From contig PBTV01000042.1 in NCBI GenBank assembly GCA_002729215.1, forward strand, positions 1 to 39,860: a stretch of DNA of 39,860 nucleotides, read 5' to 3'. Shown here one piece after another: positions 35,713-37,806 of this stretch. The stretch comes from Rubrivirga sp. Lineage in GTDB: Bacteria > Actinomycetota > Actinomycetes > S36-B12. Within the stretch, counting starts at the first letter, position 1. Every line of letters starts with the position of its first letter. The notes below the pieces were generated by a model. That model did not search any database. It was not told where the DNA came from and saw only the letters and a program-made list of their open reading frames with translations. The position numbers and the translations under genes are program-made.

Positions 35713-35817
35713 TTCCTAATGACACAAAAATCCCTTTTTTATATGCTTTTTGCCCGCATCCGGCCGTGGCCCGGGCTTCCTTTGGCTCCTTTCCGCCCAC
35801 CGTGTTCCAATGGCGCC
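35713..35817. promoter_or_regulatory. AT-rich divergent region between lipoprotein and redox module
   Basis: The first 45 bases are far more AT-rich than the rest of the window, with runs of T and A around 35727-35755. On the minus strand TATAAA near 35738-35743 could be a -10 box for the lipoprotein gene. For the plus-strand molybdopterin gene no clear promoter or ribosome-binding site is seen before ATG 35818. Confidence 0.4.
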
Positions 35818-36624
35818 ATGGAGCCCACGCTGCCGAGCGAGCGCAACGACGCCCTGGCAGCGCCCCCGGCCACACCCACCACCTCCCTAGCTGATCCACC
35901 GAAGGCCGGCGCTAGCCCCGATTCCGACTCCTCTTCCGGTAGCCCGGTGGGGCGGCGCATTGTGCTCGGCATGATCGGACTCGGTGCCGTTGGCGTCCTC
36001 GTCGGACGTCAAGCCCAAGAGGCGATAACGAGCACGGTGAGCGCAACCGTTCCCGGCCTCGGCAGCATCGTCCCCGCAGCTGGGGGATTTCGGATTTACA
36101 CGGTCACCGGCGGATACCCGGCCATGGACCCGGCGGACTACCGACTCGACGTCACCGGCAACGTCACCACGCCACTGTCGCTGACCATGGCGGATCTCGC
36201 GGACCTACCCCAAACGAGCATGACTAAAGACTTCCAGTGCGTCACCGGTTGGCGCGTCGACGACGTGCTCTGGTCCGGGGTTCTCCTCAGCGACGTTCTT
36301 GCCGCCGCGGGCGCGAGCACCGCCAGTTCGGCGCTGCGCTTCTTCTCCTTCGACGGGGCTTACACCGAGTCGCTGACCATGGAGCAAGCACTACGCGACG
36401 ATGTGCTCGTGGCGACGTCGATGTTCGGCGAGCCCGTGACCCGCGAGCACGGCGGCCCCGTTCGCTTGTATGTGGCGCCGATGTACGGGTACAAGTCCCT
36501 CAAGTGGATGTCGGGCATCGAGGTGGTCGATGAGGTGGTTCCCGGTTATTGGGAGGTCCGCGGCTACGACATCGACGCGTGGGTGGGAGCGTCCAATGGG
36601 CGCGACGACGAGCCCATCGCCTGA
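35818..36624 (+). CDS. Membrane-anchored molybdopterin-dependent oxidoreductase (sulfite-oxidase fold)
   Basis: The 268-residue protein has a Pro/Ser-rich N-terminus, then GRRIVLGMIGLGAVGVLVG near 45-63, a membrane anchor or Tat-like signal with RR at 46-47. The catalytic domain has the molybdenum-ligating Cys141 in KDFQCVTGW, and EHGGPVRLYVAPMYGYKSLKW near 205-225, as in the sulfite oxidase/MsrP superfamily. Substrate could be sulfite, methionine sulfoxide or another; sequence does not decide. ATG 35818 was chosen; in-frame codons further upstream run into the AT-rich region. Its 3' end overlaps the cytochrome b gene by 29 bases, implying partnership. Confidence 0.88.
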   Translation: MEPTLPSERNDALAAPPATPTTSLADPPKAGASPDSDSSSGSPVGRRIVLGMIGLGAVGVLVGRQAQEAITSTVSATVPGLGSIVPAAGGFRIYTVTGGYPAMDPADYRLDVTGNVTTPLSLTMADLADLPQTSMTKDFQCVTGWRVDDVLWSGVLLSDVLAAAGASTASSALRFFSFDGAYTESLTMEQALRDDVLVATSMFGEPVTREHGGPVRLYVAPMYGYKSLKWMSGIEVVDEVVPGYWEVRGYDIDAWVGASNGRDDEPIA

Positions 36625-37225
36625 CGCCCGCATCGCGCGTTTCTCCCGCGCGGAGCGCTGGGTGCACCGCAGCATTACCGTGCTCATGATCGTCCTTATC
36701 GCGACCGCGGCGGCGCTGTACTTCCCCGACATCAGCGTGCTGGTGGGGAACCGCCCCATCATCAGCAACATCCACGTCATCGCCGGCTTCGTCATACCTA
36801 TCCCCCTGATCCTCGCCCTCGCCTCCCGAGCCTTTCGGCAGGACGCTGAGTTATTGAACCGTTTCACCGCGCAGGACTGGAAGTGGCTTCGCTCACGAGA
36901 TCGCCGATCAGGACGGATCCCGGTGGGCAAATTCAATGCAGGTCAGAAGCTCAACGCCGCGTTCTCCGTCGGTTCGATCATCATCATGCTCGCCACTGGC
37001 TCCATCATGTTCTTCAATTCATGGTTTCCCGACGACATTCGCACCGGCGCCACGTTCGTGCACGACTGGTTGACCCTCGCCATCGTCGCTGTCGTTGTCG
37101 GCCACACCTACAAAGCGCTCATGGATGCCGAAGCCCGCACCGGAATGCGCACCGGGCATGTGTCGACTCGCTGGGCCGCCCGCGAGCACGGACAGTGGGC
37201 CGAACAGCAACGGCTCGGCGGCTAG
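36596..37225 (+). CDS. Cytochrome b/b6 domain membrane protein, likely electron partner
   Basis: The 209-residue protein has four membrane helices (about 26-44, 57-78, 122-141 and 156-172) and four candidate heme ligands: His24, His60, His156 and His170. This is the di-heme b561/formate-dehydrogenase-gamma pattern. GGAG lies 6 bases before ATG 36596. The 29-base overlap with the molybdoenzyme gene argues for a complex that passes electrons between the membrane quinone pool and the external Mo site. Direction of flow is unknown. Its stop shares CTAG with the VKOR stop. Confidence 0.85.
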   Translation: MGATTSPSPDARIARFSRAERWVHRSITVLMIVLIATAAALYFPDISVLVGNRPIISNIHVIAGFVIPIPLILALASRAFRQDAELLNRFTAQDWKWLRSRDRRSGRIPVGKFNAGQKLNAAFSVGSIIIMLATGSIMFFNSWFPDDIRTGATFVHDWLTLAIVAVVVGHTYKALMDAEARTGMRTGHVSTRWAAREHGQWAEQQRLGG

Positions 37226-37806
37226 TAACCCAACCAAAAATCCATCCACCGGATGAAGATCAAGGCGAGCACCACCAGGTAGCTCGCGCCGATGAGAATC
37301 CAACGCAAAGACCCCACCGTTTGGGCAACCGCCCCTGGCCCCGACCGACCACTCAATCGCCCGGCGGCCGCGTTATCTGCGGTCACCATCCAGAACACCG
37401 GGATCGTGGCCGCCCAGACGACCATGCACCACGGGCACAGCGCACCGATGACATACAGGCTCTGGGTAATCAGCCAGATGGCGAAACCGAACCCGAACAG
37501 CGCACCGAGATTGAGCCCCAGCCACACCCACCGGGGCAATTTGACCTTGGACAGCAACAAAACACCCATAGAAATAACAACGGGAAAACCGATTAACCCC
37601 AACATGGGGTTGGGGAAGCCGAAAGCCGATGCCTGATCGGTCGTGATGATGGAGCCACAGGACAGCACCGGGTTGATGTCGCATTCGGGAATGTAGTTCG
37701 GGTCCGCCGTGACTGCGATCTTCTCCAAGGTCAACTCGAAGGCGGCCAGCAGGCCGAAGAACCCCCCGACGATGAACACCCAGGGCGTCACCCGATAGGA
37801 ACTCAC
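37222..37806 (-). CDS. Vitamin K epoxide reductase (VKOR) family protein
   Basis: VKOR homologues reoxidise periplasmic thiol oxidases by passing electrons to quinone, as DsbB does in proteobacteria. The 194-residue protein has about five helices, loop Cys42 and Cys50 (ECDINPVLSCGS) and the active-site CPWC at 124-127. The GTG at 37806 overlaps the stop of the desulfurase-like gene as GTGA. No DsbA-like partner is encoded in the window. It converges on the cytochrome b gene with shared CTAG. Confidence 0.92.
   Translation of the reverse strand: MSSYRVTPWVFIVGGFFGLLAAFELTLEKIAVTADPNYIPECDINPVLSCGSIITTDQASAFGFPNPMLGLIGFPVVISMGVLLLSKVKLPRWVWLGLNLGALFGFGFAIWLITQSLYVIGALCPWCMVVWAATIPVFWMVTADNAAAGRLSGRSGPGAVAQTVGSLRWILIGASYLVVLALIFIRWMDFWLGY

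Follow-up and report, generated by a model that had tools for sequence, protein, structure and literature searches.

We identified a conserved two-gene unit, widespread in actinobacteria, in which a gene for a sulfite-oxidase-fold (SUOX-fold) molybdenum (Mo) protein is followed by a gene for a cytochrome b related to FdnI, the diheme subunit through which formate dehydrogenase N reacts with menaquinone. Together, the two proteins would very probably form an exported Mo subunit on a diheme membrane cytochrome. As an explanation of the whole system we favour, with modest confidence, an extracytoplasmic, menaquinone-linked two-subunit Mo oxidoreductase, most likely a reductase. The pair is already visible in public annotation, and the useful addition made here is the precise identification of the electron-transfer subunit; our literature searches returned no characterisation of the pair.

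The window analysed is a stretch of 39,860 nucleotides (contig PBTV01000042.1) that is part of a draft genome of approximately 2 Mb, 89.6% complete. The named relatives nearest to it are Candidatus Nanopelagicales and further actinobacterial MAGs, with Mo proteins that are 97% and 96% identical. The features discussed below are as follows.

35783-35811, + strand: conserved element TGGCTC-N13-GTGTTCCAAT, ending 6 bases before the start of the Mo-protein gene
35818-36624, + strand: Mo-protein gene (268 amino acids, 28.0 kDa; PF00174, E=1.2e-40)
36238-36240, + strand: codon of C141 in the Mo gene, within the invariant motif TKDFQCVTGWRV
36596-36624, + strand: overlap of the Mo and cytochrome genes (29 bases; translational coupling)
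36596-37225, + strand: cytochrome b gene (209 amino acids; PF01292, E=2.8e-16)
37222-37806, - strand: VKOR gene (PF07884, E=1.3e-41), a convergent neighbour and the last gene of a minus-strand operon

A first-pass annotation of the window had described a SUOX-fold protein with a Mo-ligating Cys141, a 29-base overlap with a cytochrome b gene encoding four candidate heme ligands, and an adjacent convergent VKOR gene with a CPWC motif. These observations hold: C141 is the sole cysteine of the PF00174 protein, the overlap follows from the coordinates, the cytochrome carries His24, His60, His156 and His170 with four predicted transmembrane helices, and the VKOR has four redox cysteines in all (CPWC, C124/C127; loop cysteines, C42/C50). 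The 29-base overlap occurs again in two close relatives (L037 and L050); elsewhere the genes overlap by 4 or about 17 bases or are separated by short gaps. The stop codons of the convergent cytochrome and VKOR genes also overlap (CTAG, 37222-37225).

Conservation of the gene pair

In 48 of 49 related loci (species genomes), the Mo gene is followed directly by the cytochrome gene on the same strand; the contig that carries the 49th ends 45 bases past the Mo gene. Across 396 genomes of the phylum, all 15 further Mo orthologues (E below 1e-50) have an adjacent cytochrome gene. A cytochrome that never adjoins the Mo protein in relatives, named in the first-pass annotation as grounds for rejecting the pair, is thereby excluded. 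The same overlapping pair is present in the public annotation of Streptomyces and Kitasatospora plasmids, under the NCBI names ‘molybdopterin-dependent oxidoreductase’ and ‘cytochrome b/b6 domain-containing protein’. These pairs, that of Streptomyces NZ_CP054927.1 among them, are orthologous, with the same two genes, order and overlap (49-59% identity for the Mo protein and 44-50% for the cytochrome).

Among 59 near relatives, the Mo gene was found in 27, the cytochrome gene in 25 and both in 24. The exceptions in this set are contig ends (G006 and G024) and one genus (G015 and G026), in which the Mo gene is genuinely solo, stands between unrelated genes and has no such cytochrome gene anywhere in the genome; in this lineage the electron partner has been lost or replaced. 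The solo orthologues (L131 1125-1883 in G026; L132 1241-1975 in G015) are flanked by tgt and an aminotransferase gene. Separately, a frameshift near codon 85 splits the cytochrome gene of G003 (L038 8662-9271), owing to sequencing error or decay.

Flanking genes are conserved within the family only: the trigger factor side, and genes for a methyltransferase and a cysteine-desulfurase-like protein. Those of outgroups are unrelated, and the genes around the NCBI-annotated pairs of Streptomyces and other actinobacteria differ from those of the studied locus; the unit therefore consists of the Mo and cytochrome genes alone. Three Streptomyces linear plasmids (L163, L165 and L166) carry a recurrent island in which the pair is accompanied by genes for a hemerythrin, a CGNR zinc-finger protein, two ABC-F proteins and a tannase, with no sulfur or repair genes in these three islands.

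An FdnI-type cytochrome

Sequence and model comparisons both point to an FdnI-type diheme cytochrome b. A phmmer alignment with FdnI (1kqf_C) spans nearly the whole length (E=1.2e-9), placing H24/60/156/170 on FdnI H18/57/155/169 and FNAGQK on YNAGQK. In formate dehydrogenase N (1KQF), these FdnI histidines are the ligands of hemes bC and bP, and the YNAGQK residues line the menaquinone site. The four histidines are kept in 47 of 48 relatives, and G116, Q117 and K118 of the quinone-site motif (K112-F-N-A-G-Q-K118) are invariant. For the predicted structure (pLDDT 94), 1kqf_C was the sole significant Foldseek match (TM 0.84/0.81), and VIA-align gave a Z of 20.2 with an rmsd of 2.1 over 196 residues, the next match being the superoxide oxidase CybB at 12.1. 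The likeness thus covers the fold, all four positions of heme ligands and the motif of the quinone site; however, a score of 65.5 bits against the formate dehydrogenase gamma equivalog TIGR01583 (cut-off, 115.85) marks a relative and not a member. The partners also differ: those of FdnI are an Fe-S subunit and a bis-MGD formate dehydrogenase, whereas the studied cytochrome is paired with a single-domain SUOX-fold protein.

It had been proposed that this cytochrome stands in for MsrQ, the membrane partner of MsrP. As to position the proposal stands, as the cytochrome occupies the place of MsrQ beside the Mo protein; as to kinship it does not, as the cytochrome is related to FdnI and is not MsrQ-like. 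PF01794, the ferric-reductase type to which E. coli MsrQ belongs (60.5 bits), matched neither the cytochrome nor any protein of the source genome, and BLASTP of the cytochrome against MsrQ gave no match, which rules out an MsrQ-type cytochrome.

A predicted Tat-exported Mo protein

The SUOX-fold domain occupies residues 90-253 or so of the Mo protein (PF00174, 139.3 bits against a gathering score of 24). C141, which aligns with the Mo-ligating cysteine of MsrP, SorA and plant sulfite oxidase, is invariant in 50 of 50 relatives, as are the twin arginines R46 and R47. The N terminus has a single strong hydrophobic stretch (44-62), and R46R47 ahead of hydrophobic residues 48-62 agree with the pattern of a Tat substrate; TatC was found in the genome. 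The invariant arginines, the single hydrophobic stretch and TatC indicate Tat export with an uncleaved N-terminal anchor, predicted here from sequence.

Fold comparison returned the SUOX fold, with Z of 21.0 to SorA and 17.1 to MsrP/YedY. With a mean pLDDT of 72.7, and values under 50 at residues 251-262 and 265-268, the structure model is only moderate and was therefore not used for residue geometry; active-site residues were compared in an alignment with reference enzymes. SorA R55 and H57 and the active-site tyrosine have established roles in sulfite oxidases, and the PDB entries R55M and Y236F were among the structure-search matches. Arg55 and His57 of the SorA sulfite pocket are replaced by I93 and T95, and the arginine-bearing Cys-loop insertion of sulfite oxidases is absent, leaving a short Cys loop (CVxxW) as in MsrP. 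The active-site tyrosine is kept as Y250, whereas MsrP lacks it. Arg146, five residues from the Mo cysteine, is specific to the clade.

In a phylogenetic tree, the clade of the Mo protein is well supported (0.998) and its position is weak; it groups neither with MsrP nor with SorA and plant sulfite oxidase. Identities are 42-43% to uncharacterised actinobacterial YuiH-like enzymes, 37% to a b561-paired Variovorax enzyme, 33-34% to SorA and plant sulfite oxidase and 26% to E. coli MsrP, and the best-scoring solved relatives are sulfite dehydrogenases of the SorA and SoxC types. None of the curated equivalogs was reached: scores for the sulfite-oxidising models TIGR04555, NF052245 and NF052247 were 69, 69 and 32 bits (cut-offs of 420, 600 and 570), and that for the MsrP model NF003767 was 61 bits (cut-off, 207). 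The dimerisation domain PF03404 had no match in the protein. We did not find moaA in the source genome. Because most congeners have them (as do most congeners with the Mo gene in the case of moaA), the missing MsrB and MoaA are attributed to the incompleteness of this genome.

Comparison with known systems

YedY-like group 1B enzymes combine a Mo subunit of around 30 kDa with a membrane cytochrome that is not of the MsrQ type (Kappler 2008, via PMC7759655); YedY-like group 1 has been described mainly from pathogens (PMC7759655). The pair reported here is best read as matching group 1B, to which it is likened by two described features only, its size and its having another cytochrome: the Mo subunit is 28.0 kDa without a dimerisation domain, and the PF01292/FdnI-type cytochrome is distinct from MsrQ. 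Our Mo-protein tree held only one possible member of that group, from Variovorax. The Variovorax plasmid CP063168.1 likewise has adjoining genes for a PF01292 cytochrome and a PF00174 Mo protein, with 37% identity in the Mo domain; however, the gene order is reversed and the cytochrome is longer, without significant pairwise similarity.

Other relatives differ more in architecture. Proteins of the Sco3746 type are fused membrane Mo proteins that are Tat-dependent (PMC5449189); these and the YuiH-like proteins have the PF00174 domain in common with the Mo protein. Fused relatives in the same order differ in having a dimerisation-domain match and another cysteine motif. The cytoplasmic YuiH-like enzymes are the nearest non-paired relatives, and no such cytochrome gene was present in those of their flanks that were examined.

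Proposed mechanism and alternatives

According to our preferred explanation, the Mo subunit would be exported by Tat with its molybdopterin already inserted and held at the membrane by its uncleaved N-terminal helix, with C141 ligating the Mo. Heme bP (His60/His156) would face outward, next to the Mo domain, and heme bC (His24/His170) inward, beside the menaquinone site (NAGQK), so that electrons could pass between menaquinol and Mo via the two hemes, without need of an iron-sulfur subunit. Flow from menaquinol to Mo, the direction that we consider probable, would reduce a small oxidised compound outside the cytoplasm (an S- or N-oxide), with protein methionine sulfoxide as one candidate. The short MsrP-like Cys loop and the replacement of the SorA arginine and histidine count for this direction. 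Counted against the explanation are the sulfite dehydrogenases as closest solved relatives by score, the retained Y250, the two genomes in which the Mo protein has no such cytochrome and the moaA gene not found in the incomplete source genome. Moreover, the reaction that FdnI serves in formate dehydrogenase is an oxidation.

We suggest only tentatively that the pair forms a distinct actinobacterial class, in which no iron-sulfur centres stand between a single-domain SUOX-fold subunit and the FdnI-type, quinone-reactive cytochrome on which it directly sits. Such a class might be respiratory or serve repair, with a substrate new to the family and with Arg146 as a mark of specificity.

The electrons may instead run the other way, which we consider unlikely: the Mo protein would oxidise a donor outside the cytoplasm (sulfite or another small compound) and pass electrons through the hemes to menaquinone on the inside and, like formate dehydrogenase N, would thereby build proton-motive force. 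This would be in keeping with SorA and SoxC as the best matches in both structure and sequence, with the catalytic tyrosine and with a cytochrome whose sole significant structural match, a subunit of a dehydrogenase, has its quinone site on the inner side. The altered sulfite pocket and the missing Cys-loop insertion and dimerisation domain argue against such a dehydrogenase, as do scores far under the cut-offs of sulfite dehydrogenase models (69 bits for soxC against 420) and a tree position apart from SorA and plant sulfite oxidase.

A special case of our preferred explanation, one that we judge improbable as it stands, is a protein-methionine-sulfoxide reductase analogous to MsrPQ, in which the FdnI-type cytochrome replaces MsrQ. 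The layout is the same, as E. coli MsrP is a Tat-exported SUOX-fold Mo subunit without a dimerisation domain and MsrQ is a diheme membrane partner that takes electrons from quinone, and the Cys loop CVxxW is common to the Mo protein and MsrP. However, the low identity to MsrP, the separate grouping and the score far below the cut-off of the MsrP model speak against it, and the neighbourhood offers no link to MsrA, MsrB or any stress gene. Nearly all genomes of the order have MsrA and MsrB, whether or not they carry the pair; the distribution of these enzymes is therefore uninformative about the substrate, and the neighbouring genes offer no clue to it either. Methionine sulfoxide, the substrate suggested in the first-pass annotation, is possible and so far unsupported.

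VKOR lies outside the unit

The neighbouring VKOR had been joined to the pair in a three-part envelope quality-control module. About 20 close relatives do have VKOR adjoining the pair, but the module is refuted as a general rule, and we give it almost no credence. The VKOR gene is on the other strand, with its start (37806) on the stop of a cysteine-desulfurase-like gene (37803); this start-to-stop coupling assigns it to that minus-strand operon. In most of the loci L055-L067, the cysteine-desulfurase-like gene directly follows the cytochrome gene, without VKOR, and VKOR is near the pair neither in L068-L080 nor at any of the 15 phylum-wide pairs. Two nearly complete genomes (G017 and G028) carry the pair and gave no match in the VKOR search. 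Of the genomes that carry the pair, 26 of 28 have VKOR, against 21 of 31 of those that lack it (Fisher test, p=0.02), a difference that we do not count as evidence, the genomes being related and confounded by family. Finally, the Mo protein has one cysteine and the cytochrome none, so neither subunit needs a disulfide. Neighbourhood, strand, co-occurrence and cysteine content together rule out VKOR as a partner. The cytochrome/VKOR boundary itself varies: in about eight relatives (L038 9265-9645, L047 3284-3661 and L049-L054) it holds a Fic/Doc-family gene (PF02661), likely a toxin-antitoxin insertion.

A conserved element upstream of the Mo gene

The element at 35783-35811 has one exact match in the window, the next best having two mismatches. 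As it stands six bases before the ATG, it supports the start codon at 35818. In about half of 50 relatives, the pattern GTGTTC[CT][CAT]AT immediately precedes the Mo gene, and it is rare elsewhere; in L032-L067, the form TGGCY-N14-GTGTTCYNAT ends 6-7 bases before the Mo-gene start, is kept within the family and was not seen in outgroups. From its sequence, the element is probably a leaderless promoter whose -10 is extended (TGT TCCAAT). A pattern search of 59 genomes gave chance-like matches, together with a multicopy gene family that has a similar box in G011 and G023; a functional regulon was rejected, and the element looks like a promoter type. The multicopy family (L111-L124) encodes proteins that start with MPSVEVSAPVSS and contain ALGVGWVRPGAG; its members are preceded by the box TTGCYTTTTGG...GTGTTCYCAT, often at contig ends, and are possibly a dispersed repeat or a surface-protein family.

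Significance

With a pair that recurs across planktonic Nanopelagicales, Acidimicrobiia, Streptomyces and further actinobacteria, the metabolic maps of these organisms lack one enzyme activity, which is still unnamed. Should the pair repair methionine sulfoxide, it would give actinobacteria an envelope repair system in which electrons enter by a different route; should it oxidise sulfite, the step would conserve energy. The two genes are compact and self-contained, and culturable Streptomyces carry them, so the question can be tested directly.
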